Shown here: one piece after another, positions 8,284 through 41,496 of the stretch
Layout of the letters: the number at the start of each line of letters is the position of its first letter
How positions within the stretch are numbered: position 1 is the stretch's first letter
Notes under the pieces: model-generated
The model's database searches: none
Seen by the model: only the letters and a program-made list of their open reading frames with translations
What the model was told of the DNA's origin: nothing
Position numbers and translations under genes: made by a program
Assembly: GCA_019096065.1 (NCBI GenBank)
Contig: JAGUCH010000005.1
Location: 7,192,001 to 7,256,000 of the forward strand
Source of the DNA: Paracyclopina nana
Lineage: Eukaryota; Arthropoda; Copepoda; Cyclopoida; Cyclopettidae
DNA: 64,000 nt
Reading direction: 5' to 3'

Positions 8284-8389
8284 ACACAATTTTTCCAACT
8301 CTTTGCAGTATCATTCATAGCAAAAGCTGAACAAATGTTTTGAATTGCCCCTTCACCAAACAAATTATTCAGTAATATTCGGGCAATAT

Positions 8390-12950: not shown

Positions 12951-12977
12951 CAAGATTAAACTAGCAAAAAGCATTGT

Positions 12978-13978
12978 TTGCAATGTTCGCATTGTTCGCA
13001 ATGTTCGCATTGTTCGCATTGTTCGCAATGTTCGCATTGTTTGCATTGTTCGCAATGTTTGCAATGTTTGCATTGTTCGCATTGTTCGCAATGTTCGCAT
13101 TGTTCGCATTGTTTGCATTTTTCGCATTGTTCGCAATATTTGCATTGTTCGCATTGTTCGCAATGTTCGCATTGTTCGCATTGTTCGCAATGTTCGCATT
13201 GTTCGCAATGTTCGCAATGTTCGCATTGTTCGCATTGTTCGCATTGTTTGCAATGTTCGCATTGTTCGCATTATTCGCAATGTTCGCATTGTTCGCATTG
13301 TTCGCAATGTTCGCATTGTTCGCAATGTTCGCAATGTTCGCATTGTTCGCATTGTTCGCATTGTTCGCATTGTTCGCAATGTTCGCATTGTTCGCAATGT
13401 TCGCATTGTTCGCATTGTTCGCATTGTTCGCAATGTTCGCAATGTTCGCATTGTTCGCATTGTTCGCAATGTTCGCAATGTTCGCATTGTTCGCATTAAT
13501 TGCATTGTTCGCATTGTTCGCAATGTTCGCATTGTTCGCATTGTTCGCATTGTTCGCATTGTTCGCAATGTTCGCATTGTTCGCATTGTTCGCAATGTTC
13601 GCATTGTTCGCATTGTTCGCAATGTTCGCATTGTTCGCATTGTTCGCAATGTTCGCAATGTTCGCATTGTTCGCATTGTTCGCAATGTTCGCATTGTTCA
13701 CAATGTTCACAATGTTCGCATTGCTCGCATTGTTCGCAATGTTCGCATTGTTCGCAATGTTCGCAATGTTCGCATTGTTCGCAATGTTCACAAAGTTCGC
13801 ATTGTTCGCAATGTTCGCATTGTTCGCATTGTTCGCAATGTTCGCATTGTTCGCAATGTTCGCATTGTTCGCAATGTTCGCATTGTTCGCAATGTTCGCA
13901 TTGTTCGCAATGTTCGCATTGTTCGCGATGTTCGCAATGTTCACATTGTTCGCGATGCTCGCAACGTTCGCATTGATC
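12978..13978. repeat. 9-bp minisatellite GTTCGCAWT, about 110 units
   Basis: Almost pure 9-bp units GTTCGCAAT and GTTCGCATT in irregular order, with a few T-for-C and A-for-G variants. The length is a multiple of three and the unit has no stop codon, so all frames stay open. The long reading frames here are artefacts of periodicity. Confidence 0.95.
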
Positions 13979-14036
13979 TCATTGCACTCTGTTGCTTAAG
14001 TTTTGCTTGCATTTGTTGGCTGGGTATCCAGTCTTA
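13979..14036 (+). other. linker between the 9-bp array and the right arm
   Basis: The stretch GCTTAAGTTTTGCTTGCATT...GTCTTAGCC is repeated at 34881-34925, where it also follows a 9-bp array. The array and linker therefore travelled together as one unit. Confidence 0.7.
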
Positions 14037-16772: not shown

Positions 16773-16980
16773 TGATGTTCTGATGGCTCAGTGACAGAGT
16801 GTTAGATTGCAATGCAGTCCAATCCAGGTTCAAATCCCGGTATAGGCAAACATTTTTTGTCTTTTTCTGAATAACAGTTTACTTCCTGGTCGATATCCTG
16901 GTGCAGTTTCCTGGCTAAAAACTGGGGAGTGACATAGGTCACAGGGAAATGTGGAGGGCGGGCCTTTTGCCCGCTCCCAA
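16773..16980 (+). mobile_element. tRNA-derived SINE-like copy
   Basis: A box TGGCTCAGTGACAGAG, B box GGTTCAAATCCCGG, body TTACTTCCTGGTCGATATCC, tail GAAATGTGGAGGGCGGGCC. The hairpin is imperfect here. Confidence 0.7.
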
Positions 16981-17832: not shown

Positions 17833-17928
17833 GACCTCACGTCCTCGTTTTTAACCTGGGGGAGGGACTCTGCCCTTTTTGCTTGCTTGCAAAAGAGCAG
17901 ACTTTGCGCCGGAACATAGTCAGTGTAT

Positions 17929-19017
17929 ATGCCTGGCTCAGGACGAGTTGCAGGTGAAGAAGACGTACCAGTGGAGCCTGGTAATCAAGAGGAGCCTGCG
18001 GGCAGATTGGATCAATTGGGCAGTCACAGCACTACTGCCATGGCCAACAGGGCAATCAAGGCAATCGATTTGCCTGAGTTTTCTGGAGACCGATCGACGG
18101 ACAAGCTTGGACCTCGAGCCTGGGTGACACGCATAGATCACCTGCGTACAATTGTCAACCAAGGGGCTGCTGCTGCTGAACAACCCCGCTGGAGTGATGA
18201 AGCCACTGCAAGTTATGCAGCTTTGGCCTTGAAAGGCAAAGCAGGTCAGTGGTATAATATTTTGGCTGAGGAGAAGCGGACGCCCTCCACTTGGGAGGGG
18301 CCTAATGGATTGAAGAAGATTTTTCTTGCTCGTTTCCACCATGTATGCACCTTGGCTGAAGAATCTGCAATTGAAGACTCCTTGGTACAGGAGCCTAATG
18401 AGACGGTCAAGGACTTCTTTGATAGGGTCAAAACTGGAACCCTGACCTTAATGGAGAACTTCTCACCTTTGGAGAACACCCCCACCACTCTGGTTGCCGC
18501 GGGTAAACTGCCAGAGGTCCAGGAATTGGCGAAGAATGAGGCCTACCAATTTATGGTGAAGCGCCGATTTGTACACGGGCTCATCAAGACTATCAAGTCA
18601 CAGGTTGTGGTCCAAGAATACACCAAGTTGGAAGATATAGTTGGCTTCGCATCAAGAGTGGAAGCTTCATTTTCCAATGACAAGAAGGCTTCAGTACCAC
18701 CACCAGAGGTTAATGCCATCAAGATTCAAGATAAGGAAGATCAACCGGCCCAACCCAAGAATCAAGAGAGCCTCGAGAATACAGTGGAGAAATTCATTGA
18801 CCTTGTCAAGGGCCGCCTTGGCGAATGCAGACCACCTAGGACCTCCCAGGGTAATCGCCTTAAATGCTGGTATTGCGACATTCCAGGCCACCGAGAGACG
18901 GAGTGTTTCAGCAAGAAAAGAGATCAGAAGAACAATCTATATAAACCCAAGCCTGGAAGCAAGAGGGCCAGTGAAGGGAAGCAAGCTCATGAAGTTCAAG
19001 GTGATTTAAACTGGTAG
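17929..19017 (+). CDS. Gag of element 2 (362 aa)
   Basis: Capsid-type structural protein that would package the element's RNA. The start is the first ATG in the frame. Residues ~45-230 look like a Ty3-type capsid (WVTRIDHLR, ALALKGKAGQWYN, KDFFDRVK). A CCHC zinc knuckle (CWYCDIPGHRETEC) starts at residue 313 and is followed by a basic stretch. It ends at TAG 19015-19017, with a -1 frameshift heptamer just before the stop leading into protease. No frame breaks. Confidence 0.85.
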   Translation: MPGSGRVAGEEDVPVEPGNQEEPAGRLDQLGSHSTTAMANRAIKAIDLPEFSGDRSTDKLGPRAWVTRIDHLRTIVNQGAAAAEQPRWSDEATASYAALALKGKAGQWYNILAEEKRTPSTWEGPNGLKKIFLARFHHVCTLAEESAIEDSLVQEPNETVKDFFDRVKTGTLTLMENFSPLENTPTTLVAAGKLPEVQELAKNEAYQFMVKRRFVHGLIKTIKSQVVVQEYTKLEDIVGFASRVEASFSNDKKASVPPPEVNAIKIQDKEDQPAQPKNQESLENTVEKFIDLVKGRLGECRPPRTSQGNRLKCWYCDIPGHRETECFSKKRDQKNNLYKPKPGSKRASEGKQAHEVQGDLNW

Positions 19018-19063
19018 GCGGCCGTCCCGTGCTCCAGCCGACAAGCCGCCCTGGTCTGGCCGC
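19005..19063 (+). promoter_or_regulatory. -1 ribosomal frameshift signal (gag to pro-pol)
   Basis: TTTAAAC at 19005-19011 is in the canonical register (T TTA AAC) relative to the gag frame. A slip of -1 enters the protease-pol frame, which is open from here. The gag stop is 4 nt downstream. A possible stem pairs GCGGCC (19018-19023) with GGCCGC (19058-19063), 6 nt after the heptamer. The alternative GGCGG/CCGCC pairing could form a competing stem. Confidence 0.8.
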
Positions 19064-19442
19064 TTCAACATTCTCGATGCTACTCTCATACTTCACAACC
19101 ATGACTGTAAGTCGACCTGTTACCAATAAACGGCCATTTTTGACTGTAACTTGCCATGGAGCAAACTTCAATTGCCTTTACGATACTGGTGCTAATATCA
19201 GCTTGTTGTCACGCACCGCCTTTAGAAAGATTCCCATTGACAAGAGGCCTCAAAAAGTGCTAACTGCATCCCCGCTAAGAGCTACCTGTGCGTCCGGTAC
19301 GCCGCTGCGAATACTTGGACTTTATCAGCTGCCATGTGACATCAAAGGAAAACAAACTCTGTGCAACTTTTATGTTTGTGACTCCTTAAACGTAGAAGGC
19401 ATCCTGGGGGTAGACATTATCCATGCTGCTGGTTTGCACTAA
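19011..19442 (+). pseudogene. aspartic protease domain of element 2 Pol
   Basis: Entered by frameshift from gag. It contains the retropepsin motif LYDTGANISLLS (catalytic Asp at 19192-19194) and the later hydrophobic ILGVDII. It would cut Gag-Pol into mature proteins. The frame ends at TAA 19440-19442, but the same frame continues straight into the RT region, so this stop interrupts what should be one pro-pol polyprotein. Either a disabling mutation or, less likely, a readthrough stop. Confidence 0.75.
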
Positions 19443-22400
19443 GACCCTGTTTCTATGGCTGTTCACTACGAGAAAACCTCGCCAACCGCTGCTGTCGTGC
19501 ACAATGACACCTTTCTGCCTGCCAGAAGCGTTGCAACTGTCAAACTGCTAATTACTGATGAACTACGCAAACGACAACCTAATTTTGAAGGATGTTTCAA
19601 ACTCAGAAACTTCGAGGATTCCATGGTGTGCGCAGACGACTGCCTTCTCCGAACAGACGAATTTGGAATCGCTACTGTGAAGATTACCAACCCTGGATTG
19701 GAGCCCACTACACTGATAAAGGGGCTAAAAATTGGTGAACTTGTCAACGTTGATTTATCCAATTTTGTACCGTTTAATGATGTATTTGCTTGTGTTTCCA
19801 GCATTTCTACTTCGGGACAGCCACCTAGGCATGATCCCATGGTGAAGGAGTATATTAACAAGCATGCCAGACTTGACCACTTGACTCCTAATGAGCGTCA
19901 GAATTATTTAAAACTGCTCTTAAACAATTCTGACGTTATTTCCATTTCAGAATACGACTTGGGTAAATGTACCCTAATGAAGCACAAGATCAATCTGACT
20001 AACAGAAACCCAGTGTTCAACAAACAATTTCCGATCCCTCAAAAACATTTGGAGCACATCAGTGAAAGTGTTGACGAATGGCTGAAAATGGGAATCATTG
20101 AGCCATCTGACTCCAAATGGAATTCCTCCATATTTTGTGTTCCAAGAAAATTACCAGATGGACAGACAGGCTGGAGACCAGTGATTGATTATAGAGGCCT
20201 GAATGCCAAAACAGAGCCATCAAGCTATCGCCTCCCACTCATCTCCGAATGCATCGATGACATTGGAAGGTCAGGAACCCAACTTTTCTCACAATTAGAC
20301 CTCCGCAATGGCTTTCACCAAATGCAAATGGATGAATCTTCCAAACACTTGACTGCATTTACTATCCCCGGGAGAGGCCAATTCCAATACTGCAGGGCAC
20401 CGTTTGGACTTTGCAACATGCCCCTATCATTTCAGCGTATGATGATGAAAGTGTTTGAACACCTGACCCCCAAACGAGTTTTGCTTTATTTGGATGATAT
20501 TTTAGTCAAGGGAACTGATCACAATGACATGATTGCAGGTTTGGAGGAATGTTTCACGCGGCTTCGAAGAGCAAATCTAAAAATCAACCTCCCCAAATGC
20601 TCCTTCGGGACTACGGAATGCACTTATCTAGGCTTCACTTTGACACCTACAGGTTACCAACCCAATAGGAGGAAATTACAAGCCATAGAAGATGCTCCTC
20701 CTCCAACTACTGTCCGAGAAATAAGGCAATTTCTGGGATTATGCAACTTCTTTCGGTCCTGCATTCCAAGGTTTAGCAAACACTCACATGCCTTATCACA
20801 GTTAACTTGCAAGGACTCCAGCTGGCTTTCTGGCCCTTTGCCCCCTCAAGCCTTACAGTCTTTTCAGAAATTGAAGGAGCTCCTGTGCAGTGAACCTGTG
20901 TTGGCTTACCCTAAGCCAGAGCTTGACTACCATTTATATGTGGATGCTTCCCAAGGCACTGTAGACAACAGTTTGGATGATGGATTGGGCGCCGTTTTAA
21001 TCCAGTACCAAAACAACGAGCCTAGAGTAATCAGCTATGCATCGAGGAGTCTGCTAAAACATGAGAAAAACTACACACCTTATCTACTTGAGCTATTGGC
21101 GTTCACCTGGGCAATTGAACACTATGCTGTCTACCTCACCGGAACCAAGTTTACATTGTACAGTGATCACAAACCCTTGGAGAAACTCAACAAGACCCAT
21201 ACTCGCACTCTTTCTCGCCTCCAGGACCTCATGATACAGCATTCATTTACAGTCCAGTATTGTCCAGGTGACAAAAACCCTGCTGATTTTTGTTCTAGAA
21301 ATGTGCCCGAGGCCTTGCGCCAAATCAACGCCTGTGTGTATGGGGTCTCTACAGAAGCCCTAGAGGATTTAGAAGTCATGAAGCAGCTGCAGAATTCAGA
21401 CACGGTGCTTTCCGCTCTGATCTCCAAGATAAAGAGCGATTTGATGCCATCTTCACCCGAATTGAAGCAAATTGTGAATAGATATGCCAAGCACTGTGAG
21501 CTCAAGGATGACATCTTGTTGATAAAAATTGGGCAACTAGGCCGCCGGGTTATTTGCGCACCGGCTATATGCCAGGCCGACATCATTAGTGCTGCTCATG
21601 CTGCTGTTGGCCACAAAGGAGTTTACAAAACATGCGAACGAATACGAGAACAGTATTTCTGGCCAAGAATGATGGCCGATGTGGAAGAATACATTAGCTC
21701 ATGCTGGAAATGTGACAAGAGCAAGCAGAAATCGCAGTTTTCTAACACTCCCTTACACCCACTGTCACAACCTAGAGGGCCGTTTGAACGAGTACACTGC
21801 GATCTCTTTGGGCCACTACGAACATCAGGTCGACAAAAGAAGTTTATCCTAGTCATCACGGATGCTTTCACGAAGTATGCCGAGTTCGTGGCGTTGCCAG
21901 ACAAGACCCCAGAAACAGTTAGCCGAGGCATTTTTAACAGGTGGATTTCACGCTATGGATCACCGTGCATTTTAGTGACTGATGGTGGTAAGGAATTTAC
22001 AGCAAAGGTAAATGATGAACTGTTCTCGCTACTGCAAATTGATAAAAAGAAAACAAGCCCCAGGCACCCCCAGACTAACGCTGCGGCCGAAGTAATTAAT
22101 AAGCATATCATTAGCTATTTGCAGAAGACGCTAGATTTGGATTCGACACTTGACTGGGAAGAAATGTTACCAGCACTGCAGCTGAGCTACAATGTGGGCG
22201 TTAGCAAGGCTACAAAAATGAGCCCGTTTTTCCTTCTGTTTGGGGTACAACCCAGGACCCCTTACATGGATCCAAATGTGGTAGACCACAAGTATTACGG
22301 CGATAGCTACAAAGACGAAATTGGAAAACGTCTCCAAATTGCGCGACAAGTGGCCGCAGAAAACAACATTCACTACAAAGAGTTATACACAGCACAGCAC

Positions 22401-22466
22401 AATGCCAAGGTAAAACAAGAAGACTTCAGAGAAGGTATGCTGGTGTGGCTACACAGACCTGAATAA
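19443..22466 (+). pseudogene. RT, RNase H and integrase of element 2 Pol
   Basis: In the same frame as protease. RT carries the LYLDDILVKG catalytic motif (Asp pair at 20493-20498). RNase H follows (LYVDASQG, LYSDHKPLE). Integrase has an HHCC finger (HAAVGH ... CWKC) and a D,D-35-E core (VHCDLFGPL, LVTDGGKEF, AAAEVINKH). All catalytic residues that can be recognised are present. The first ATG in this segment is 19455, but expression would start in gag. The frame stops at TAA 22464-22466, upstream of recognisable integrase C-terminal sequence that continues in frame. Ty3/Gypsy type; lineage not assigned. Confidence 0.88.
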
Positions 22467-22955
22467 CGTAAGATTAACCCTAAAATTAATTCACCTTGGG
22501 AAGGCATGTATGTTATTGTGGGTCTGCAAGATGAGAATGCGCTCATCCAACACATGCAGACTAAGAAAACAAGATATGTGCACAAAGACAGGTTGCGAAT
22601 TTGCAAATCCGCAGCCAACATGCCTGGGCCTACTCAGTCAAGCGCCTTGCCCGACAACCCAAAGCCAGACGTTGCAACTCGTGCAGAAGAAAATGAAACG
22701 CACGCCTCAGAAACAAAGTCTGGCTATATAAGGATTGAAGACGACGACATCACCATTCTTAACCCTCTGGCACCTCCGCCGCAGCCCATCCCGATCAAAA
22801 CTGATACTGATCAAGAGTCTGCAACTGACTTCACTCGGCCTAACGTTAAAGAGGAACCACCTAGCCCAGAATCTGCTACGGATAATCAACCCACAGGGCT
22901 GTTTCAGCGGTTACGGAAGGTATTTGACCGTTATCTGATTTTGGTACCGAGCTAG
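22467..22955 (+). pseudogene. integrase C-terminal region of element 2, beyond the in-frame stop
   Basis: Same frame as the preceding segment. PWEGMYVIVGLQDENALIQ and TRYVHKDRLRI look like the GPY/F-type end of integrase, followed by an acidic, Pro-rich tail. This shows that TAA 22464-22466 is a premature stop. The frame ends at TAG 22953-22955. From about 22943 another frame (+1 relative) runs on to a TGA at 23138-23140 with similar Pro/Ala/Lys-rich composition, so a small indel near 22940 may have cut off the natural tail. Confidence 0.65.
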
Positions 22956-23136
22956 GCAACCTGGTTGTCCCCCTTGACCCTGAAGTCCAACGCCAAGCCT
23001 GTTCCTATAAGAAGGCTACTGCTCCCACCGAACAACCCGCTACCACCCGTAGAGCTGCGGCTGCAAAAAATATCGAGATACAAGATCCAGTTTTACCTTC
23101 CAGGCCAGTTGAATACAAGAAATACACGAAGAAAAA

Positions 23137-23496
23137 ATGAACCTACACCTGTACTTTATCGATCTGCAACTTGTAGCAGACTTTGTGGCCACAGGGAGGG
23201 GATTGGCTGAAACGCAGAACCCCACAACTCAACTGTTGTCCAAAACTTCCAATACAGACTGGTCCCACTATGGATTCCAAAGGGCTGGCAAAGCCATGGT
23301 CTCGGTCCATTATGGCAATATCTACATAAATGTCAATCTTCATAATCTCAAGGAATACTTTTCAGTTGCTCTGAACCTCCAGCTCCTCATCTCAAGCGCC
23401 GCCACTTCTAAAGCAAATGACTTAGTACTCCAAACTCTCATGGATCTTGTCAATGAACGCACTCGCCGAATGGAATTGAAGTACAACGATGTTGTT
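23137..23496 (+). pseudogene. 5' part of the env gene of element 2, interrupted
   Basis: Starts at ATG 23137, which overlaps the TGA of the alternative pol tail (ATGA). The N-terminus (MNLHLYFIDLQLVADF) could be a weak signal peptide. About 120 codons of surface-subunit-like sequence follow. The frame is broken by the insertion of element 3 at 23497. The continuation is at 31016-32419, in the matching phase once the insertion and one target duplicate are disregarded. Confidence 0.7.
23492..23496 (+). other. target-site duplication of element 3, left copy
   Basis: TTGTT directly before the 5' LTR is repeated at 31011-31015 directly after the 3' LTR. A 5-bp duplication is normal for Ty3/Gypsy integrases. 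Confidence 0.9.
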
Positions 23497-23797
23497 TGTT
23501 ATATCACGTTGAAACGTACTTCCCTATATTGACTCTCACGTGTATTATATAGCTATAGATACGCCCTCTTGTTACCCCAGCGCGCGCGTGCACTATCATT
23601 CATTCTTTCTGTATCGCTTAAGCTTGCACCGAATTACACTCAGTACACTTCTCGTATCAAAGTGGATACGTTCGCCTCGATCTGGTAAATCTCGGCGTAG
23701 TGCTTCACGGCTACCTGGTACAAGACCAGGGATCCATTCACCGACGTAGCTCGAGTAGTAGTGCCTTAAGTGTCACCCACGAGGTCGGGATCCACCA
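23497..23797 (+). repeat. 5' LTR of element 3 (301 bp)
   Basis: TGTTATATCACGTTG to GGGATCCACCA. It contains TATATAGCTATAGATA as a candidate TATA region near 23550. The LTR begins in the env frame of element 2. Confidence 0.9.
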
Positions 23798-23854: not shown

Positions 23855-24004
23855 GAGAAGCAGCCGAAGAAGGTTTGTGAGTGGAAAATTTCCGCCACCC
23901 TTGGCAGCATCACGACAACAAAGTGTGAGAGGCAGCCGGAGAAGGTTTCGTGAGTGGAATTGTGAAAGTTCCGCCACCCTTGGCAGCATCACAACAAAAA
24001 AGTG
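23855..24004 (+). repeat. direct repeat in the element 3 leader (two ~72-bp units)
   Basis: GCAGCCGAAGAAGGTTTG and CCGCCACCCTTGGCAGCATCAC recur with a spacing of 72-75 bp. It lies in the untranslated leader between primer site and gag, where packaging signals usually are. Confidence 0.75.
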
Positions 24005-24019
24005 TCAACAAAGGTGTCC

Positions 24020-27000
24020 ATGAGCCAGGACTCAATTAAAAGTGCTGGCGAAGAAGAGTGGCATACTGCAGATCAGAACGTATTTGCAGCACTTCAAAGG
24101 CAAGTGAAAGCCTTAGAAGAAGCCAAAGAAGAAGCGGAGGGCCCCGAAGATACGCTTTTGGCAGCCACAAATAGTGACGAGGACACATTTGACACAAGTG
24201 TGGTCAGAGCAAATTCAGCGATGACCGATAAGGAGAATCCAACTGACTTGCAATTGGCAATCGGGAAGCTTGCCGATGCCAGAGGTGCAAGAGCACTCGA
24301 GGACCTCACCAAACAAGTACATAGTCTCAATGGACACAAGAGTTGGTTGTCCAGGCACATGAATGCCGGAGAGAAGCTATGCGAGGCCCTGGAAAAGCAG
24401 AAGGAGCTGTCAGTTTCAGAGGTGAAAGACCTTTACAAGCTGAAGCAAAAGTTGGCCGACCAGGAGAGCAGCATCATGCAGATTTTGAATAATTTGCCGG
24501 ACAGAGACCGGGTCACACAAGGAGACAAGGTCAAGGAGATGTTTGAGAGAAAGGATGCCCTGGAATTGGAAGCACTGGCACTCATAGGCCGGTACGAAAA
24601 GGCCAATCCTACTGCCACACTGGCAACAAGTGCACCGGCACAAGAGGACAGAAAAGCTGTCAAGCCGGATGCAAATTTGAAGCCGAAAACGCTGAAGACT
24701 GGTGCAACAGCCATTGAGCTGCAGGTTTTTTTGAGGACTTGGAAGACCTACGTTCAAGAGTCGGAGATCCAGAAGAAGTCCATCAATGCCCAGCACACTT
24801 ACAGTCTGGTATTATTTGATGCCAATCTATCAGCCAAGATTTCAGCAAAGTTGAGTGCGGAATCGCCCCTATTCATACAAGATGAAAATGCGGGCACTCC
24901 TTGGATCCTTTCAATGGAGAGGATCGTAGTAAACGAGTTCCAGCTGGCGTTTCCATTGTCTAGGAGAAGACTGGAGTGCTTTCGTCACAAAAGTACAAAC
25001 CCAAGCGAGCTGCATGGAACGAGTTGGGCTGCATTTGAGCTGAAATGCAAAGCAGCCGAGTTTGAGAGCATGGACATAGAGACGGTAATGAAGTACCTCT
25101 ATATGAGCTCTCTAGCTAATAAAGCCTTACGGAAAGAGCTTATCAAGGCCGACAATTCATTGGGCGGCAAAGCAACGATGGAAGAGCTCAAATCGGCAGG
25201 CAATATGTATGATATTAATACAGCCACCGAAGAGGGATATGAGGTCCCCTCCGTGAAGAAGGCTGGGCCTACTGCTTATCGCAAGAAAAAGGCCATGGGC
25301 TCGAATGCTGGGGCTGAGGCCGCAGGTTCAAGCCAGAAGAAGAAGCATGGAGGTTGCTTTGAATGCGGAAGTAAAGAGCACCTACGACCAAATTGTCCGA
25401 AGGCACCAACCTGTCAATTTTGCAAGAAGAAGGGTCATGGGGCGGACAAATGCTTCAAGAAGAAAGGCAAGGGCGAGGGTGGCGAGAAGAAGCCAAATGG
25501 GAACCCGAAGAAAGCCATTAAAAAATTCACAGTTAAGTTGCCTTTGAGTTCTGATTTTTCTAGCACGTTGGAGTGTAAAAACGCTATTGCTTGCAATGAG
25601 GCAATACGCATTATGAAAAAATCAAAAGATAGATACTCTCTGCCGTTCATTTTTCAGAGTCGCATCAAGAGGATGGAGGAAGATGACGGAGGGGCAGGGG
25701 TTATCAAGATGGCGAAGACCAAGAGCAGAAAAAAGAAGGAGATGCAGCAGAAGATCTCCAAGGCAGTGAGCGGGCTGCGGCCCTCATGCCTACCCAATGC
25801 TACCAGGGTCACGTCATCAAGGCCAACTCCCAAGGCCAAACTATTATTTTGCCCTGAGATAGGGTCTGCTTTCTCTACGTATTGCCTGCCAGATACTGGA
25901 GCAACCATTACTGTGGTTGATGAGAAAGTTGCAGCGGAGATGGGGATGCCAATATATCCCAATCCGGAGACCGTCAGGAGCGTTGATGGCACCGAAGTAA
26001 AGACGAGCAGAACATGTGAGATTGCAATATCACGTGGCATGAAAGTGGTTGTAGTAACCAATGCAGTGGTCGCTTCACTTGGTGACGATGAAGAGGTGAT
26101 TGTCGACTGGCAGACACTGGAGATTTTAGGCGTGGTTGGCCTAAACATCAATTCCACGGCAATCGCAGCAACCACAATGGATATGACTCTGGAAAGCTTG
26201 AAGCTCAAGTATGCAGAGGTCTTTGCAGACAAGCTTGACAAGACTAGGTTTATGAAGGGTGAACCCATGAAGATCCACCTAGTGGATGGGGACATAAAAC
26301 CTATGAGGATCTCTTCAACCAATGCCATACCGGTGCACCTCAAAGCAGCGGCGGATAAGTGCATAAAGGATCTGGAGGATGCCGACATTGTCAAGAAGCT
26401 GAAGCCAGGGGAGATGACAGATTGGACCTCTAGGGGCTTCTTTGTCATCAAGTCTGATGGGAAATCAGTAAGGTTGGTTACGGACTTTGTTCAGCTGAAC
26501 AAGTACGTGAAGAGACCAACCCACCCCTTTACGTCTGCATTCCATTTGTTGAAGAGCATCCCTGCAAAGGCTCAGTGGTTTGTGGTCGGAGACTGTGCGC
26601 AGGGATACCACCAGATCAAGTTGGAAGAAAAATCATCCTACTTGACTACATTTTTGCTACCACAGGGAAGATTCCGTTATGTGAGAGCTCCCATGGGGCT
26701 CACATCTTCCAGTGATGAGTGGTGTTGCAGGAGCGACATGATCATGACAGGCCTTAACGGAAAGGGAGTCAAATTGGTCAATGATGTCCTCATCTGGGGG
26801 GAAACAGAGCAGGAAGCCCTGCACAATCTGGATGTTCTCCTCAGCAACTGCAAAACCTATGGTGTCAGCTTATCACCCAAAAAGCTGCACATGGGTGAAC
26901 GTGTCAAGTTTGCTGGATTCATGGTCAGCAAGAATGGTGTAGAACCACATGATGACAACTTGAAAGCAATCAGGGAGTACCCAAGGCCAGCCAACCAGTC

Positions 27001-28825
27001 GGATGTGCGAAGCTTTTTGGGATTGGCTCAAACTTTAGGAAGTTTCTTGCCTGATTTGGCCCACATGTCAGCTTCATTGAGGGAGCTAACAAAGGCCAAA
27101 GTTCAGTTTCAGTGGTTACCAAGACACGAAGAAGACTTCAACCAGCTGAAGAAGATCCTGACCGGACCTTTGTTGGTGAAGCATTTTGATGTCAACAAGA
27201 CCACAGTGTTGACAACGGATGCCAGCAGATTATATGGCATCGGCTACATTCTAACTCAGTATGACCCAAAAGACCCGGACAGGAGCTACCTGATTACCTG
27301 TGGGTCCAAGGTCAACTCCGCTGCTGAGAAGAATTATGCAACTATTGAGCTGGAGTTGTTGGGGATAGTCTATGGATGTGAGAAGAGCTCGCATTTTCTG
27401 CATGGCTGCCCAAAATTTTTGGTGAAGACTGACCACAAGCCTTTACTTGGTATTATGAACAAGGACATGGCAGAGATCACAAACTCCAGACTCTTGAGGC
27501 TCAGGGAGAGGTTACTACCGTTCAACTTCGATTTGGTCTACCTTGAGGGGAAGTTAAACTTCATTGCAGATGCCTTGTCAAGACATCCAATTAACTTCTC
27601 AGATGACCACCCAGACGCTGAAGAAACAGAAACTTTGAAGAACTCAAAGATCAGCGTAATATCAGCCCTCTCTGTCTCAGCATTAGAAGATCCGGCATTC
27701 CAAGAAATCCATGAAGCAGCAAAAGCTGACAAGGAGTATCAGGATCTAATCGAGGCCATCCAGGAAGACCTTCATCATCATAAGAAGAAGGGTGTGGCCA
27801 TTCATGCATTGAAGCTGGTGCCCCAAAACCTTTGGGGGCAGCTCTCGGTTCAAGATGGAATGGTGGTTATTGATGGGAAACGTGTATTCGTACCAAAAGA
27901 AGCACGTCCATTCATCTTGAGGGCTCTTCATATTGCGCACCCTGGGCAAACGAAGAGCCTGGCTACGGCCAGACAATTCTACTATTGGAGTGGTATGACC
28001 AAGGATATCAGACAATCAGTAGAAGAGTGCGAAATGTGCCAGAAGTACATGGCCTCTTTACCGCATGATGAAGAAGGCGAGAACATGATACCGACGGCCC
28101 CAATGCAAAGCATTGCAATGGATTTGGGTCACCACGAAGGGGCAGACTATCTGATAGTTGTGGACACCTTCAGTGGCTGGCCATGGATTTTCAAGATGGT
28201 AAGATACACTAGCGAGGAAATCATCAAGAAGTTGACGATCATTTTTGCCACATTTGGGTACCCGATCGTGATAAGATCCGACAATGCTGGATGCTTCACT
28301 TCTCATGAAATGCGTGAGTTTTGTAAAGAGCATGGCATAATTGCCACCACCAGCAGCCCGTATCACCACGAGTCCAATGGGACCGCGGAAGCTAGTGTGA
28401 AAAACATGAAAAGGCTGGTTATGAAAACCAAGACCCTAGGGGAGATGAACGCCGCGGTGCTGGAATTTCGAAACCTGGCACGGGCAGACGGCAAATCCCC
28501 CGCGAAGATGTTTTTGGGCCGTCATTTAAGGACGAAATTACCAATCTTGCATGAGATGACAAAGCTTGAGATGCCAGAACCCAGAGCTGAAAAGAAGCAA
28601 TTGCCTAACGAGATCATTCCAGATTTCAAGGTGGGGGAAACAGTGCGCATGCAAAATGCAATCACTAAGCTTTGGGAGGAGTTTGGAGTCATCCTCGAAG
28701 TTCGGCATTCCGGTAGAAGCTACGTCATCAAAAAGGATGATGGCGTGATCAGTGTGAGGAATAAGCGCTTCTTACGTAAGCATAACGCGCAGGCGGCTGA
28801 CCTCGATGCAAATGCATCTTTATGA
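24020..28825 (+). CDS. Gag-Pol polyprotein of element 3, single frame (1601 aa)
   Basis: The first in-frame ATG is 24020. The Gag part starts acidic and helical and ends with two CCHC knuckles (CFECGSKEHLRPNC at 446 and CQFCKKKGHGADKC) and a Lys-rich stretch. Protease has LPDTGATITVV (Asp 625). The RT fingers and palm are recognisable (RLVTDFVQLN, QGRFRYVRAPMG). At the polymerase motif the frame reads KLVNDVLIWG, so the first of the two catalytic acidic residues is Asn 921; Asp 922 is kept. RNase H has TTDASRLYG (Asp 1067) and KTDHKPLL. Integrase has an HHCC-like finger (from His 1304; CEMC) and the triad D1368, D1421, E1457 with 35-residue spacing. No frameshift separates gag and pol. The motif style is like Mag-type Ty3/Gypsy elements; lineage not verified. 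Confidence 0.93.
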   Translation: MSQDSIKSAGEEEWHTADQNVFAALQRQVKALEEAKEEAEGPEDTLLAATNSDEDTFDTSVVRANSAMTDKENPTDLQLAIGKLADARGARALEDLTKQVHSLNGHKSWLSRHMNAGEKLCEALEKQKELSVSEVKDLYKLKQKLADQESSIMQILNNLPDRDRVTQGDKVKEMFERKDALELEALALIGRYEKANPTATLATSAPAQEDRKAVKPDANLKPKTLKTGATAIELQVFLRTWKTYVQESEIQKKSINAQHTYSLVLFDANLSAKISAKLSAESPLFIQDENAGTPWILSMERIVVNEFQLAFPLSRRRLECFRHKSTNPSELHGTSWAAFELKCKAAEFESMDIETVMKYLYMSSLANKALRKELIKADNSLGGKATMEELKSAGNMYDINTATEEGYEVPSVKKAGPTAYRKKKAMGSNAGAEAAGSSQKKKHGGCFECGSKEHLRPNCPKAPTCQFCKKKGHGADKCFKKKGKGEGGEKKPNGNPKKAIKKFTVKLPLSSDFSSTLECKNAIACNEAIRIMKKSKDRYSLPFIFQSRIKRMEEDDGGAGVIKMAKTKSRKKKEMQQKISKAVSGLRPSCLPNATRVTSSRPTPKAKLLFCPEIGSAFSTYCLPDTGATITVVDEKVAAEMGMPIYPNPETVRSVDGTEVKTSRTCEIAISRGMKVVVVTNAVVASLGDDEEVIVDWQTLEILGVVGLNINSTAIAATTMDMTLESLKLKYAEVFADKLDKTRFMKGEPMKIHLVDGDIKPMRISSTNAIPVHLKAAADKCIKDLEDADIVKKLKPGEMTDWTSRGFFVIKSDGKSVRLVTDFVQLNKYVKRPTHPFTSAFHLLKSIPAKAQWFVVGDCAQGYHQIKLEEKSSYLTTFLLPQGRFRYVRAPMGLTSSSDEWCCRSDMIMTGLNGKGVKLVNDVLIWGETEQEALHNLDVLLSNCKTYGVSLSPKKLHMGERVKFAGFMVSKNGVEPHDDNLKAIREYPRPANQSDVRSFLGLAQTLGSFLPDLAHMSASLRELTKAKVQFQWLPRHEEDFNQLKKILTGPLLVKHFDVNKTTVLTTDASRLYGIGYILTQYDPKDPDRSYLITCGSKVNSAAEKNYATIELELLGIVYGCEKSSHFLHGCPKFLVKTDHKPLLGIMNKDMAEITNSRLLRLRERLLPFNFDLVYLEGKLNFIADALSRHPINFSDDHPDAEETETLKNSKISVISALSVSALEDPAFQEIHEAAKADKEYQDLIEAIQEDLHHHKKKGVAIHALKLVPQNLWGQLSVQDGMVVIDGKRVFVPKEARPFILRALHIAHPGQTKSLATARQFYYWSGMTKDIRQSVEECEMCQKYMASLPHDEEGENMIPTAPMQSIAMDLGHHEGADYLIVVDTFSGWPWIFKMVRYTSEEIIKKLTIIFATFGYPIVIRSDNAGCFTSHEMREFCKEHGIIATTSSPYHHESNGTAEASVKNMKRLVMKTKTLGEMNAAVLEFRNLARADGKSPAKMFLGRHLRTKLPILHEMTKLEMPEPRAEKKQLPNEIIPDFKVGETVRMQNAITKLWEEFGVILEVRHSGRSYVIKKDDGVISVRNKRFLRKHNAQAADLDANASL

Positions 28826-28904
28826 CTAGTAATTGAAGCATCTCACTCAACGCCCAGCTTTTGCAGCAACACCTTCTCCACGATAAACTTTACATCAGCA
28901 CTCA

Positions 28905-29687
28905 GTAAGTCCTTTTTGATGTATACATACACCCAGTGGCTCGGTACTTTGAACACGCCGACCGCAGAAGAGGCTAAGAAAAACGAAGAGAAGTTAGTTG
29001 CCCAAATCGCAAAAAGCCTTGTAAAAAATTGTCCCCCTGTAAATTGCACTTGGTCGAAGGTTATAATGGGCTCGGGTCAAAGTACAACCAACAGCGCTGA
29101 CAAAGCAAAGACTCAGGTTGTCGATGAGACCAGCCACACTGGAATTAGGCTAGCGGACATTGACATTATGGTTCCGCAAGGCTCCAGTGAAGAAGACAAG
29201 TCGGCTGCCGAATCAGCTGGCAAAGATGTCACGCATTGGATCTTCTATGGAGTGGCCTTTTGCGCTTTGATGGCTTTGCTATGGATTGGACTGCGGTTCA
29301 GGAAATGGCGGAAGAAAGCCAGCGCAAGGAAAAGGGCCAGAGACTCACTGTTGATCATGCATTCTCAGGCTGCAAATGTGCAGCCACAGGTCTACCCCCA
29401 ACAAGCCCCTGCCCCATATGGATGTCAAGGCTACGTGTCACCCTATGCCACACCCTTCGCCTCGACAATGTCCATTGCCCCGACCCCTCATCCGATGGTC
29501 TACCAACCGTTTCCAGGAGTTGTACAGAGCTTGCCAAATATGGCTTATGGAGCCTCCCCGCTGGGAAGTTCACCTGCGGTTTCGCATCCTGACTCACCCC
29601 CCTTGCAGGAGGAGGAGCAGAGACGGCGAAATCGTCTTCTAGCCATCTCTTACAACAATATCTAAAGTGTTTTTCTCTATGTTGCAG
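28905..29687 (+). other. putative intron that would remove ORF A
   Basis: GTAAGT at 28905-28910 is a perfect donor. TTTTTCTCTATGTTGCAG ends at 29687, 2 nt before the ATG of ORF B. The intron would span all of ORF A, so splicing could select between ORF A and ORF B. Another acceptor-like CAGCTTTTGCAG ends at 28866 and could serve a leader exon. Confidence 0.5.
28919..29665 (+). CDS. ORF A of element 3: unrecognised single-pass membrane protein (248 aa)
   Basis: First ATG after the pol stop, in an env-like position. I recognise no family. Residues 1-49 contain an NCT sequon. An internal Met at residue 50 (29066) begins MGSGQSTT, which would fit N-myristoylation if that Met were used as start. 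A hydrophobic segment at ~107-127 (WIFYGVAFCALMALLWIGL) is followed by a strongly basic stretch (RKWRKKASARKRAR), so the C-terminal side is probably cytoplasmic. The last ~110 residues are rich in Pro, Gln, Tyr and Ser. There is no clear signal peptide, furin site or Cys-rich ectodomain, so it is not a typical Env. Removal of a putative intron would delete it. Confidence 0.7.
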   Translation: MYTYTQWLGTLNTPTAEEAKKNEEKLVAQIAKSLVKNCPPVNCTWSKVIMGSGQSTTNSADKAKTQVVDETSHTGIRLADIDIMVPQGSSEEDKSAAESAGKDVTHWIFYGVAFCALMALLWIGLRFRKWRKKASARKRARDSLLIMHSQAANVQPQVYPQQAPAPYGCQGYVSPYATPFASTMSIAPTPHPMVYQPFPGVVQSLPNMAYGASPLGSSPAVSHPDSPPLQEEEQRRRNRLLAISYNNI

Positions 29688-29689
29688 GC

Positions 29690-30436
29690 ATGTTGAAAGG
29701 TCAAGCCAACCAGAGTCCCCCCTTAGATTGGGATCACCCAGATTGGGATCCTGAGGCACCATACGAACCCCTAATCTCGCCGCTCGATGTTGACACGCTG
29801 GCAAAGCTAGATGATGTCGACAAACTCAAGGCCGCATTGGAGAAAGCCAATGACAAGCTGGAGACCGCCCAGTATAGGATTACCGAGCTGGAGCACAATC
29901 TGGCCGAGGCCAACGAGGAGGTTAGAGACCTCATTTGGACCAAGGATGTGCTGCGTGCGGACCTTAAACACCAGTACAATGGATACAGGCGGATGTTGGA
30001 CAAGATATTCGACAACATCCACAAGGCCATGAATTCGCCGAGCAAGAAATGGAAGCGGACTCGGATTATACCCATGACGCCCCTCAAGGTGGAGGTTGAT
30101 GCCGAAGGGGTCCGCAGAGTCTCCAGGCCACATTATGAGACCGCGGAGACTGCGAAGCGTGATGGCTACGCCCCAAGGGCTGGCAAGGCGTATACCCGTC
30201 AAGGTATTATGCTGGAGGCCGAGCTCATTGGATTCGGACAACTCGACAAGGCTTGCGAATTGGACGCAGGCTCTGAGGTCGAGACGCTCGTCACGAAGGC
30301 CGAGATCGCTGAGATTTTGGACTTGAAGCGCGACGAGATTGTCGAAGTAGTCAAAGATGGCCGCCGTAAGCTTGGTATGGCGATAGCTGCAATGGCAGCT
30401 GTGGGTGCGATGATGGTCATATGGTACTCAAAATAG
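29690..30436 (+). CDS. ORF B of element 3: unrecognised coiled-coil, tail-anchored-like protein (248 aa)
   Basis: The ATG follows a good 3' splice site by 2 nt, which supports both the start and expression from spliced RNA. No family is recognised. The N-terminus is acidic and Pro/Trp-rich (PPLDWDHPDWDP). Residues ~35-95 form a probable coiled coil with heptad-spaced Leu/Ala (KLKAALEKANDKLETAQYR). A basic patch (KKWKRTRIIP) follows. The last ~20 residues (LGMAIAAMAAVGAMMVIWY) are hydrophobic and end three codons before the stop, as in tail-anchored proteins. A coiled coil plus terminal anchor could suggest an oligomeric membrane protein; function unknown. Confidence 0.7.
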   Translation: MLKGQANQSPPLDWDHPDWDPEAPYEPLISPLDVDTLAKLDDVDKLKAALEKANDKLETAQYRITELEHNLAEANEEVRDLIWTKDVLRADLKHQYNGYRRMLDKIFDNIHKAMNSPSKKWKRTRIIPMTPLKVEVDAEGVRRVSRPHYETAETAKRDGYAPRAGKAYTRQGIMLEAELIGFGQLDKACELDAGSEVETLVTKAEIAEILDLKRDEIVEVVKDGRRKLGMAIAAMAAVGAMMVIWYSK

Positions 30437-30710
30437 ATGCCCAATGGAGGGAGGTTGCTGACGGCATTGCCTCGAAGAGCAACATAGAGAAGAGAAGACA
30501 CCGGACCAGATGAGAATATTTTATTTTGATATGCTATGCATTTTTCCTATTTCCAATTTATTAGGTTTTTTATGCTCTTATCGAAATTTTCGCTTACTAG
30601 GTATGTCATAAATCCTAGGCCCCAAAATTAGCGTAGTTCGAGGTCAATTGATAGGCTAATATGTTAGTGATTACAGCTACCCAGGGGTATCCGTACCCAC
30701 TTGGGGGAGG
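30437..30710 (+). other. 3' untranslated region and polypurine tract of element 3
   Basis: Non-coding, AT-rich. It ends in TTGGGGGAGG at 30701-30710, directly before the 3' LTR. Confidence 0.75.
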
Positions 30711-31010
30711 TGTTATATCACGTTGAAACGTACTTCCCTATATTGACTCTCACGTGTATTATATAGCTATAGATACGCCCTCTTGTTACCCCAGCGCGCG
30801 CGTGCACTATCATTCATTCTTTCTGTATCGCTTAAGCTTGCACCGAATTACACTCAGTACACTTCTCGTATCAAAGTGGATACGTTCGCCTCGATCTGGT
30901 AAATCTCGGCGTAGTGCTCACGGCTACCTGGTACAAGACCAGGGATCCATTCACCGACGTAGCTCGAGTAGTAGTGCCTTAAGTGTCACCCACGAGGTCG
31001 GGATCCACCA
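30711..31010 (+). repeat. 3' LTR of element 3 (300 bp)
   Basis: Same sequence as 23497-23797 except one missing T. It is followed by the target duplicate TTGTT at 31011-31015. Confidence 0.92.
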
Positions 31011-31015
31011 TTGTT

Positions 31016-32419
31016 AGCTTCTATACGCTTTATGCAGACAACAACCAGGGCCCCAGACAGAAACGGTTCCTTGGTGTCCTCCTAGCAGGCCTCGCTGGTC
31101 TGGGCATTGGATCAACCCTATTCGGATTACTTGACCAAGGAAAGATGGACAACCTTGCCAGAAACATCAACAAGCTGGGTTTCCGCCAGGACAAGATAAT
31201 ACACCTCCTTGGTAAGACTAATGAAAACGTCCGCTTAAACAGGGTAGACATTGCTAAACTAAGAGAAGCCTTGTCTGCTGTTTCCAACCTGGTAAGCAAG
31301 AACCAGCTAGAAATAGAAGTCACCGTTCTAGCCATGCAATCTGACCACATCCTTAGTCTGATTGAAAATAAGCTTGACTTGTATGTCGCTGCAGCAGCTG
31401 CCAGCGCCCGTCACAGACTTGCCCATGGCTTACTCTCTTACGAGGAAGCCTCCAGCTCCTTAAAAGTGATCGCGAAGATGGCACGCAACAAGGGCTTACA
31501 GCCAATTGTTACTGACCCCCATTACCTATACCAGCTTGAGACCTCCATAATCTTTGATGTGGACGGATTTAACCTACTTGTACATGTGCCACTTACCAAT
31601 GAAGATCAGGTTTTGACACTCTATCGCTACTTGCCCTTCCCCATTGAAATCACGCCAGGCCTAACTGTAGAAGTTCATCCAGAACATGACATGTTGGCCT
31701 TACACGAAGAATCCGGATCGCATTTTGAGCTATCCCACACGGACATCTCTATGTGTGAAAAGGTGCACAACTACTATATCTGTCCCCATATATCCTATCT
31801 GGCCAAAAGAAATCAGCCTTCCTGCGTAATGTCCCTCTATCTTGCAGACCACAATCAAGCTTTAAAAACTTGTAAACTGGCAATACGGCAAGCTACCGAT
31901 TGCATCCTTCCATTTGGGAACAACGAGTTTTCTGCTTTTACTGAGGATCCAACTTATTACCAACTGACATGCAGCAATGGGACCACGAAAACTAGCCAAC
32001 TACACCACTTTCATCATTTCAAGTTAGAAGAGGGTTGCAATGTTGAGCTTCCACACTTCACGTTGTTTGGGGGCATAGAAATCAGAGTGGAGAAGACTAT
32101 GGAAACCTACAAATGGAATGTCCCAATTCTCCAGCTTGGTCACAATATGTCACCAGACGACATTCTTAAGACTCTCAACCAGATCAACTCCACTTTACCT
32201 CCAACTGACCCACATTCTCTGGCTTTCCTCAAAAGCCATTTTGAACCAGTCACAACTTGGAATGAGACGTTAATCATCATTGCCATCGTTGCTGTCATCT
32301 CCTTAGTTTTGGTTCTCCTGGTCTACTCCTACGCCTTCAAGAATTTCCGTGTAATGACTTTCTTCCGACAAACTAAAAATCAGGACCATGACCTAATTCC
32401 TAATAACGTCACCACCTAA
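31016..32419 (+). pseudogene. 3' part of the env gene of element 2 (F-like fusion protein)
   Basis: Continues the env frame after element 3. A furin-type site RQKR (31055-31066) is followed at once by a Gly/Leu-rich fusion-peptide-like segment (FLGVLLAGLAGLGIG) and a long helical region with heptad character. This layout is that of the F1 part of baculovirus F and errantivirus Env proteins. Cys-rich middle part; sequons NGT, NST, NET. A membrane anchor (IIIAIVAVISLVLVLLVYSYAF) lies near the end with a short ~30-residue tail. The frame itself is open, but the gene is split by a 7.5-kb insertion and cannot be expressed as a whole unless element 3 is removed. Ends 26 bp before the 3' LTR. Confidence 0.82.
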
Positions 32420-32444: not shown

Positions 32445-32637
32445 TGTACTTTTGACTTCCTGGCAATCACTCTGACAACACTCACTCTTATGATAGTGCC
32501 GTAACCTTGTGCGACAGATATATAAGCGCGAGTACTGCAATAAAGAGACAGATTTGATACTGACTTTGAGCTAGCAAGTTGTGCTCATTCCGGCTCGCCA
32601 TAGTTGTTAGGATCTTGGGAAGTCCAGGATCCATTAC
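32445..32637 (+). repeat. 3' LTR of element 2 (~193 bp)
   Basis: Intact reference copy for the split 5' LTR. It has the TATA box TATATAA at 32519-32525 and AATAAA at 32539-32544, and ends GGATCCATTAC. The start could be a few bases earlier, because TATTGTAC is also shared by both copies. No clean target duplication is seen, but both flanks fall in the same 169-bp repeat. Confidence 0.78.
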
Positions 32638-32638
32638 T

Positions 32639-33100
32639 GCGCGATGCGCAAGTTTTCACCCTTGCAAACTCAAAATGAGTCAAAAGTTTGACTTTGCCTC
32701 ACAGTTTGAGTCAAGTTGACTCAAACTATTTGCTGCAACTGACATTTTGACTCAAATTCGACTTGGTCAAGAATTTCATGTTTTATTAGCAGTTAAGTAG
32801 AAGTACCGCGCGATGCGCAAGTTTTCACCCTTGCAAACTCAAAATGAGTCAAAAGTATGACTTTGCCTCACAGTTTGAGTCAAGTTGACTCAAACTATTT
32901 GCTGCAACTGACATTTTGACTCAAATTCGACTTGGTCAAGAATTTCATGTTTTATTAGCAGTTAAGTAGAAGTACCGCGCAATGCGCAAGTTTTCACCCT
33001 TGCGAACTCAAAATGAGTCAAACATTTGACTTTGCCTCTTATTTTGAGTTAAGTTGACTCAAACTGTCTGCTGCAACTGACATTTTGATTCATTAGCAGT
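32639..33100 (+). repeat. 169-bp tandem repeat, about 2.7 units
   Basis: GCGCGATGCGCAAG recurs at 32639, 32808 and 32977. Inside each unit are near-palindromic phrases around TTGAGTCAAGTTGACTCAAA. Same family as 12577-12950. Confidence 0.88.
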
Positions 33101-40425: not shown

Positions 40426-41496
40426 ATGAACAAGTGCGACATTTGTGGGCAAACGTTCAAGTTGGTCATTGCCTTGAAGAAGCATCATGAAGCAAATCAT
40501 GAGCTTGGGAGAAGCATGCCAAAAGACATGCCTTTTAGATGTGACATTTGTGATAAACACTTCCCGCAGAAAAGTAGCCTTTCTAGCCACAAAATCCAAG
40601 TGCATGGAAATCCTTTCCATTGTGACATTTGCGACAAATTATTTGGTAAAAAAGGTAACCTTTCAAAGCATATCAAAATGGTGCATGAGGGACTGAAGCC
40701 ATTCAAGTGTGACATTTGTGACAAGCAGTTTGGCCGAAGAGAAAACCTTTTAAAGCATGTCCAAACCATACATGAGAGACACAAGCCATTCAAGTGCGTC
40801 AATTGTGACAAATATTTCAGTGACAAACGCTATCTTTCAATTCATTTTAAAACAGTACATGAGGGAGAGAAAAGATTCAAGTGTGACGTATGTGACAAGC
40901 ATTTTGGCCTAAGACCAAACCTTTCTAGGCATATCAAAATGGTGCATCAGGGACTCAAGCCCTTCAAGTGCTACATTTGTGACAAATTGTTTGTCATAAA
41001 ATGTAAACTTTCAACGCATATCAAAATGGTTCATGAGGGACTGAAGCCAATCAAATGTGACATTTGTGAACAATTGTTTGTTGAAAAGGGTACTCTTTCA
41101 AGGCATATCAAAACTGTGCATGAGGGACTGAAGCAATTCAAGTGTGACACTTGTGACAAGCAGTTTGGCCGAAGAGAAAACCTTTCTATTCATGTCACTA
41201 GGGTGCATGAGGGACTGAAGCCATTCAAGTGTGACATTTGTTACAAGCAGTTTGGCCAAGGATCACACCTATCAACGCATGTAAAAAGTGTGCATGAGGG
41301 ACTGAAACCATTCAAGTGTGACATTTGTGACAAGCAGTTCGGCCAAAGAGCACACCTTTCAGCACATATCAAGATGGTGCATGAGGGACTGAAGCCATTC
41401 AAATGTGACATTTGTGACAAATCATTTGGTGATAAAGGTGTCCTTTCAAGGCATATGAAAATGGTGCATGAAGGACTGAAGCCATCCAAAAGCTGA
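40426..41496 (+). CDS. C2H2 zinc-finger protein 2 (12 fingers, 356 aa)
   Basis: Paralogue of the genes at 5807 and 43721. It has the same start context and first finger (KCDICGQTFKL). Twelve C-x2-C-x12-H-x4-H fingers have HEGLKPFKC-type linkers; the linker between fingers 2 and 3 is shortened (GNPFHC). Every finger keeps its four ligands. No other domain is present. The frame ends at TGA 41494-41496, where one base has been lost relative to the expected finger start (CCAAAAGCTGAC), so a 13th finger lies out of frame. AATAAA at 41594-41599 and 41696-41701 are possible polyadenylation signals. Likely a nuclear DNA-binding protein; targets unknown. Confidence 0.9.
   Translation: MNKCDICGQTFKLVIALKKHHEANHELGRSMPKDMPFRCDICDKHFPQKSSLSSHKIQVHGNPFHCDICDKLFGKKGNLSKHIKMVHEGLKPFKCDICDKQFGRRENLLKHVQTIHERHKPFKCVNCDKYFSDKRYLSIHFKTVHEGEKRFKCDVCDKHFGLRPNLSRHIKMVHQGLKPFKCYICDKLFVIKCKLSTHIKMVHEGLKPIKCDICEQLFVEKGTLSRHIKTVHEGLKQFKCDTCDKQFGRRENLSIHVTRVHEGLKPFKCDICYKQFGQGSHLSTHVKSVHEGLKPFKCDICDKQFGQRAHLSAHIKMVHEGLKPFKCDICDKSFGDKGVLSRHMKMVHEGLKPSKS

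Follow-up and report, generated by a model that had tools for sequence, protein, structure and literature searches.

What occupies the place of env in a retrotransposon that has none? The question is raised by element 3, a young long terminal repeat (LTR) element lying in a 64,000-nt stretch of the genome of the copepod Paracyclopina nana (the window; C5:7192001-7256000 of a 91,952,342-bp, 10-contig assembly, which our genome searches cover), wherein two open reading frames (ORFs), here ORF A and ORF B, are found between pol and the 3′ LTR. As the best explanation we propose, with a probability of roughly 0.6, that ORF A is a FAST-like protein which would serve envelope-free cell-to-cell transfer, and that splicing would select either ORF A or ORF B. 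The support that the sequence offers consists of a conserved layout, selection at the protein level and conserved splice signals, and the analogy is with retrotransposon proteins of insects.

The element, its two ORFs and the selection acting on them

Element 3 is a Ty3/gypsy (Metaviridae) element of an env-less Ty3-like lineage: the Pfam domains of its pol run in the order protease, reverse transcriptase (RT), RNase H and integrase, between LTRs with target-site duplications (TSDs; coordinates in Table 1). The TSDs match, and the LTRs (301 bp and 300 bp) are a single indel apart, which bears out the youth ascribed to the element by the first-pass annotation, made from the sequence alone. Of 17 window-family sequences, 14 have the usual form of the RT catalytic motif, two (the window copy and L030) have an altered form, and L021 finds no match. 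Hence the window copy, although young, is probably not active by itself.

Both of the 248-codon ORFs originally described are real, but the ORF A product is likely shorter than that count. Its frame is open from 28916 to 29665 and has 248 codons when counted from the ATG at 28919; the main product is nonetheless likely the 199-aa protein that begins with MGSGQSTT at 29066. We take the latter as the main start because its context is good (ATAATGG), because the 49-codon extension upstream of it evolves slowly at synonymous sites, and because in six related elements (L047-L052, see below) no in-frame ATG precedes that of the MGxxxS motif. For the window copy, synonymous divergence (dS) in the extension (28919-29065) is 0.03-0.20, corresponding to 1-5 synonymous changes, versus 0.23-0.30 in the remaining ORF A, and the ratio of nonsynonymous to synonymous divergence (dN/dS) there is 0.26-1.07, on few changes; such slow synonymous change would be expected of splicing or an RNA cis-element more than of coding. 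The upstream ATG, with its poor context and the differing rates in the extension, was accordingly set aside as the main start. A longer form may also be made, as the outside relatives P0004-P0006 have a similar stretch before the MG.

All features first attributed to ORF A were recovered: the MGSGQSTT start, one membrane segment (residues 58-76 of the 199-aa form, nt 29237-29293, by hydropathy), a basic stretch and a Pro/Tyr-rich tail. AlphaFold places a single helix over the membrane segment (pLDDT 92-95 at residues 61-80). For ORF B, first described with a coiled coil and a C-terminal anchor, AlphaFold predicts a long helix at residues 41-115 (pLDDT 73-83 in the blocks 41-80, with little else), and hydropathy gives a C-terminal membrane segment at residues 228-246. 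The models of the two proteins are mostly of low confidence, with means of 52.8 and 53.9.

Genome searches returned 41 match rows for ORF A, 19 of them stop-free over 1-249 or 1-248 (some copies are split into two rows), and 42 for ORF B. In an alignment of 33 rows, from which L033 with its ~1.7 kb of inserted DNA and the duplicate loci L001 and L035-L038 were left out, 27 rows keep ORF A open and in frame from 29066, and 26 keep ORF B so. The dN/dS of ORF A is 0.07-0.12 between the window copy and 10 chosen copies and 0.05-0.10 between sisters (4 pairs); that of ORF B is 0.16-0.22 between the window copy and seven copies and 0.20-0.28 between sisters (3 pairs). The same holds among the related elements: in the pairs L048/L051 and L049/L050 ORF A has values of ~0.10 and ORF B of 0.15-0.17, and ORF B gives 0.10 in L047/L052 and 0.31 in L048/L050, two pairs in which the dS of ORF A is saturated. 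Both ORFs are under purifying selection, in the window family as well as in its relatives, and the conservation in sister copies on which the initial description staked its case is thereby affirmed.

Relatives of ORF A and the FAST-like layout

A genome search with the integrase end uncovered six related elements (L047-L052), whose pol is 46-51% identical to that of element 3. The ORF pair, which the first-pass annotation proposed to seek in related elements, is present in all six: ORF A begins 126-231 nt past the end of the pol frame and encodes 207-221 aa, starting with MGSSQS, MGNSAS, MGQSNS (twice) or MGQSTS (twice), with a membrane segment from residue 34-39 that is followed by K/R residues and a tail of 14-19% proline; ORF B follows with 129-181 aa. 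In the L048 element, the LTRs of 251 bp share 99.6% identity. The few genome rows obtained with ORF A of L048 (six, four of them full length) and of L052 (four, two full length) indicate that both types are low-copy.

Beyond this genome, neither ORF found a match at E ≤ 0.01 among 5.8 billion proteins, and scans of IMG/VR by the integrase end yielded 5 and 34 pattern matches, with no relative confirmed. Among the best 120 of 1540 pol homologues at E ≤ 1e-20, three (P0004-P0006) bear tails of 439-459 residues past the integrase end that contain an ORF A homologue starting with MGMSAS or MGITGS, in one open frame with pol. By hhalign, ORF A aligns with these over 59 columns, starting at residue 1 (E 1e-5, probability 82%, 34% identity), and three column shuffles used as controls gave E 0.27-0.56. 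The tails of P0002, P0003 and P0007 are 69-72 residues long and have no membrane segment.

The layout of ORF A was compared feature by feature with that of FAST and sORF2 proteins. An MGxxxS/T N-terminus, the putative myristoylation signal, is found in all seven elements and in the three P0004-P0006 tails (within the longer frame there); a single membrane segment with the N-terminus predicted to lie outside, from hydropathy, K/R counts and the positive-inside rule, is likewise found in 7/7; a basic stretch of 8-10 K/R per 20 residues follows the membrane segment in five; and, by eye, a Tyr stands right after the segment in L047, L048, L050, L051 and L052, not in L049 or the window copy. A filter for this feature set (MGxxx[ST], membrane segment, basic residues), applied to ATG-started frames of at least 60 aa, retained 1 of 506 frames in the window, namely ORF A, and 6 of 612 in L039-L054, exactly those of L047-L052; on reversed DNA, which yields fewer frames, it retained 0 of 73 for the window and 0 of 318 for all loci. 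As its thresholds were chosen after seeing the proteins, the filter measures the rarity of the combination and is no blind test.

The nearest parallel is the sORF2 of the insect 412/MDG1 elements, which Voichek et al. (2025; PMC11952523) describe as a FAST-like protein at fusogenic synapses or soma-oocyte contacts, reporting envelope-free cell-to-cell transfer by such proteins for fly elements. ORF A had first been called unrecognised, a label that falls away, since its layout fits that of these FAST/sORF2-like proteins. Like the MDG1-group elements (412, Stalker2), element 3 and its relatives are env-less Metaviridae with two accessory ORFs per element, one of them with MGxxxS/T, a short N-terminal part, one membrane segment and a basic stretch. 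Unlike sORF2, ORF A lies after pol in 7/7 elements and not upstream of gag (a location downstream of pol is reported for 7 of 22 Lepidoptera consensuses), encodes 199-221 aa with a long proline-rich tail, and is accompanied by a different second ORF and by splice signals; 412 and its relatives showed no evidence of splicing (PMC11952523). The words mite, arachnid and crustacean are absent from the accessible part of that paper, and, judging by titles and abstract openings, with subscription papers mostly uncovered, our literature searches turned up no other FAST-like protein from an LTR retrotransposon.

With the reoviral FAST proteins (p10, p14, p15 and others) ORF A shares, by layout, an acylation motif, a predicted N-out segment, a polybasic stretch and a proline-rich tail, and their length of ~100-200 residues (PMC12945298, which cites the work of Voichek et al.) is similar; the genome type differs. 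The ORF3 of the bdelloid Vesta elements (PMC5408684) is comparable in that small membrane or coiled-coil ORFs follow pol and a fusogenic role has been suggested, but it differs in having two membrane segments with cysteines and an RXXR motif; the term "myrist-" does not occur in the accessible text. The earlier statement that neither protein looks like a known Env holds: at E ≤ 1 the Pfam matches of the two ORFs include no Env family, none came up in the protein searches at E ≤ 0.01, and, by eye, both lack a cleavage site with a hydrophobic stretch after it.

Splice signals and the likely exchange of ORF B

The donor and acceptor reported to bracket ORF A are indeed in place (GTAAGT at 28905-28910 and an acceptor ending at 29687), and this layout recurs in the six relatives: each of the seven elements has a GTAAG donor at a distance of 5-161 nt upstream from the MG codon of ORF A, together with a pyrimidine-tract CAG whose end is 2-9 nt ahead of the start codon of ORF B. 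Sites were scored with a weight matrix built from consensus frequencies, over the first 6200 nt of each locus for L047-L052; the acceptor was the top-scoring site in the 14 nt upstream of ORF B, and the donor that in the 170 nt upstream of ORF A. The ORF B acceptor ranks first among AG sites in the window, L047 and L052 (639, 506 and 484 sites, respectively) and in the top 0.8-2.7% in L048-L051, so that all seven fall within the top 0.2-2.7%; the donor is in the top 0.5-1.9% of GT sites in six elements and at 4.5% in the window. In L048-L051 an extra acceptor stands 1-2 nt ahead of the ORF A start codon (top 0.4-2.0%), and the same scan found none just before it in the window, L047 and L052. 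From this difference we discern two putative designs: retention versus splicing in the window, L047 and L052, and a choice of acceptors in L048-L051. The arrangement as read from the sequence resembles that of complex retroviruses, with donor and ORF B acceptor in 7/7 and an ORF A acceptor in 4/7.

Within the window family, the acceptor that ends at 28866 is identical in 21 of the 33 rows and deleted in 12; the donor reads GTAAGT in 20 and GCAAGT in one, and is deleted in 12; and TTGCAG/GCATG, in which the acceptor ends 2 nt before the ORF B ATG, is kept in 32 and deleted in one. The copy with GCAAGT (L019; G000:C2:10482237) has both ORFs open, and we take its donor to be of the minor GC-AG type. 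Both GTGAGT sites of the leader are retained in L054 and L031. Recurrent deletions (~28859-29022, ~95 nt after 29069, and most of ORF B) were considered as introns lost via RNA and rejected as such: the first two are common to many copies and are thus read as ordinary deletions that became widespread, and the ends of the first, by eye, are unlike a donor and acceptor.

Twelve of the 33 copies (L021-L032) have lost ~28859-29022 and also the pol stop. In 11 of these (L032 being the exception) pol and ORF A form one frame, as seen from the equal open-frame length in the ORF A and integrase-end searches; the MGSG is also missing in five, and most of ORF B in L024, L026, L028 and L031. These copies have multiplied nevertheless, perhaps by using the proteins of others. 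Hence the proposal that one RNA could give either protein is sustained by the conserved signals and has to be narrowed in its reach: as 12 of the 33 copies lack the donor and all but one of these have the fused frame, mutually exclusive splicing is not universal in the family.

ORF B behaves differently from its surroundings. Against five sister copies its region is 67-87% identical while the flanks are 89-97% identical, and its dS in the window copy is ~0.9-1.0, as opposed to 0.23-0.30 in ORF A. The ORF B of the window is likely an exchanged cassette, introduced by recombination. The island of divergence spans 29690-30550 between conserved flanks and starts near the splice acceptor.

Competing explanations, genomic setting and biological meaning

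Several observations weigh against a FAST-like, splice-controlled cassette. On the protein side, L047 and L052 have a weak basic stretch (4-5 K/R with 4 D/E in 20 residues); the N-terminal part is 33-38 residues long in the six relatives and 57, rather than ~30, in the window copy; the hydrophobic moment gave no better values than shuffles in any of the seven ectodomains, in a crude test for the amphipathic motif described for sORF2 ectodomains; and ORF A is roughly double in length, the FAST-like proteins of retrotransposons being reported at 63-107 aa (PMC11952523). As for the relatives, those considered are the ones at 46-51% identity, among rows that reach down to 25-31%, the pol of L047, L050 and L052 contains a stop or frame change, and the window ORF A matches theirs weakly (E 0.08 for L047/L052 and 5e-4 for L048-L051). 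On the RNA side, the 5′ donor is a guess, the leader of the L048 element (in L053) has no GT[AG]AG[TAG] site, and searches with window-family patterns for genomic copies of the two expected spliced junctions gave 0 matches, plus one single-mismatch match that is the GCAAGT donor site of L019. Finally, since 12 of 33 copies multiplied without the donor and five of them without the MGSG, the cassette appears dispensable in cis for some copies.

The alternative that survives best concerns ORF B, which could be a regulator of unspliced RNA export of the Rev or CERV kind, the splice switch then being an early/late control; we see this as possible, albeit on the unlikely side. Early proteins of complex retroviruses come from fully spliced messages, and ORF B would likewise arise from a message from which ORF A has been removed. 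A parallel exists in Cer1 of C. elegans, whose CERV ORF occupies the env place, is expressed through a spliced mRNA (acceptors TTTCAG/TTGCAG) and encodes a protein required to export RNA (PMC10309623); element 3 shares with it the env-place ORF and the TTGCAG-type acceptor. CERV differs in being a nuclear RNA-export protein that has no fusogen-like partner in the accessible part of that paper. There are three types of ORF B: that of L047/L052 has no membrane segment by our scan, as would suit an exporter, whereas those of the window family and of L048-L051 end in a hydrophobic, C-terminal membrane segment, which is odd for a nuclear protein. No homology was detectable among the three types (E 0.43-0.58), and therefore one common function is not assured.

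An acylation motif, a single membrane segment and a basic tail are found in retroviral accessory proteins too, and ORF A might thus be a Nef- or Vpu-like protein of trafficking, budding or channel function rather than a fusogen, an idea we find rather doubtful. In its favor, the amphipathic motif is unsupported and fusion by ORF A is a prediction from its layout; yet ORF A takes the env place in all six relatives, and its features, including the N-terminal part of 33-38 residues in L047-L052, fit those of FAST/sORF2 (PMC11952523).

That ORF A functions solely within a gag-pol-ORF A polyprotein, forming its C-terminal portion, with an incidental MG start, is improbable. The fused frames of 11 of the 12 donor-less copies and of P0004-P0006, and a pre-MG stretch that is alike in P0004 and P0006, speak in its favor. 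Conversely, all 12 listed donor-bearing copies (of 21 rows, window included) retain the pol stop, the ORF A of L047-L052 starts well past the pol frame, M1, G2 and S6 are invariant across 12 aligned ORF A proteins, and the P0004-P0006 tails align from the MG on. It is highly improbable that the ORFs and splice-like sites are functionless relics of a defective element, for, although the RT motif of the window copy is altered and many copies are broken or deleted, dN/dS is 0.05-0.28 between chosen copies of the window family and 0.10-0.17 within three related pairs for which it was computable.

Table 1. Features of element 3, in window coordinates
Feature	Position	Strand	Remark
TSD TTGTT, left copy	23492..23496	.	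pairs with right copy
5′ LTR (TGTTAT...ATCCACCA)	23497..23797	+	one-indel difference from 3′ LTR
Leader stretch with two GTGAGT donor-like sites (23877-23882, 23950-23955)	23877..23955	+	candidate 5′ donors (putative)
gag-pol, one open frame	24020..28825	+	aspartic protease, RT, RNase H, integrase
Candidate small non-coding exon	28867..28904	+	between acceptor CTTTTGCAG (ends 28866) and donor (putative)
Splice donor GTAAGT, upstream of ORF A	28905..28910	+	kept in 20/21 rows retaining the region
ORF A upstream in-frame extension, 49 codons	28919..29065	+	contains NCT; cis-element-like
ORF A, 199 aa from MGSGQSTT	29066..29665	+	FAST-like: myristoylation motif, membrane segment, basic stretch, Pro/Tyr-rich tail
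ORF B splice acceptor (TTTTTCTCTATGTTGCAG, then GC ATG)	29686..29687	+	32/33 rows; best of 639 AG sites
ORF B, 248 aa	29690..30436	+	long helix residues 41-115 (29810-30034), C-terminal membrane segment (30371-30427)
3′ LTR	30711..31010	+	pair of 5′ LTR
TSD TTGTT, right copy	31011..31015	.	site inside F-type env of element 2

Element 3 splits element 2 (gag 17923-19017, pol 19455-22466), which spans 17923-23491 and 31016-32419. The env of element 2, of ~595 codons, is F-type by our reading, with an RQKRF cleavage-like site and a hydrophobic, fusion-peptide-like stretch; it has no Pfam match above the cut-off, and it is open elsewhere in the genome as a 595-codon frame (17 rows, 95-100% identity). 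It shares with the cassette of element 3 the genome and the location after pol, and is set apart by its longer frame, its cleavage-like site and its fusion-peptide-like stretch. At 19-5525 the window holds the end of another Ty3-like element, with RNase H and integrase (19-2838), and behind it an ORF of 824 aa (3051-5525) that matches the Pfam family Monjiviricetes_fusion (3e-76): where env would be, there is a glycoprotein of the type known from negative-strand RNA viruses. Further afield are a perfect inverted repeat of 2793 bp (arms 8204-10996 and 14061-16853) around a 9-bp tandem array near 12840-14000, part of the middle between the arms (12578-12923) being 97% complementary to 32633-32978 adjoining element 2, and long uninterrupted C2H2 zinc-finger ORFs at 5807-7573, 40426-41496 and 43721-45202. 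In the genome, 80 matches to the cuticle domain Chitin_bind_4 mark the host as an arthropod; searches for Blo-t-5 and 7tm_6, run with no positive control, were empty and do not place it further.

Returning to the FAST-like reading of ORF A, we envisage the following course of events for this two-gene membrane cassette in the env place of an env-less element. A splice from the 5′ leader into the post-pol region would give the ORF A message. The protein made from MGSGQSTT would probably be N-myristoylated, pass the membrane once with its N-terminus outside and have a basic, proline-rich cytoplasmic tail; it would most likely act at cell contacts, letting capsids enter a neighboring cell, for example from the soma to the germ line. 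Joining the GTAAG donor to the acceptor before ORF B, in a further or alternative splicing event, would remove ORF A and yield ORF B, probably a membrane-anchored helper or regulator. The layout thus suggests that element 3 may pass between cells without an envelope by means of ORF A. What would be new relative to the insect elements is the post-pol place throughout the group, the approximately doubled length, the ORF B partner and the conserved splice layout. More tentatively, at somewhat short of even odds, an arthropod Ty3-like lineage would have swapped env for an alternatively spliced membrane pair: a long FAST-like fusogen and an exchangeable, separately selected partner. One donor would switch between the two, in the manner of the early and late messages of complex retroviruses, and the element would spread among cells with no envelope.

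If true, this would be a case of cell-to-cell spread without an envelope, in which capsid transfer may be turned on by splicing. The family, replicated as it is in the window type, two further types and the outside relatives, may reveal which parts of a FAST-like protein are constrained; and since two other membrane-protein solutions occur in elements of the same window, all of them could be compared within one genome.

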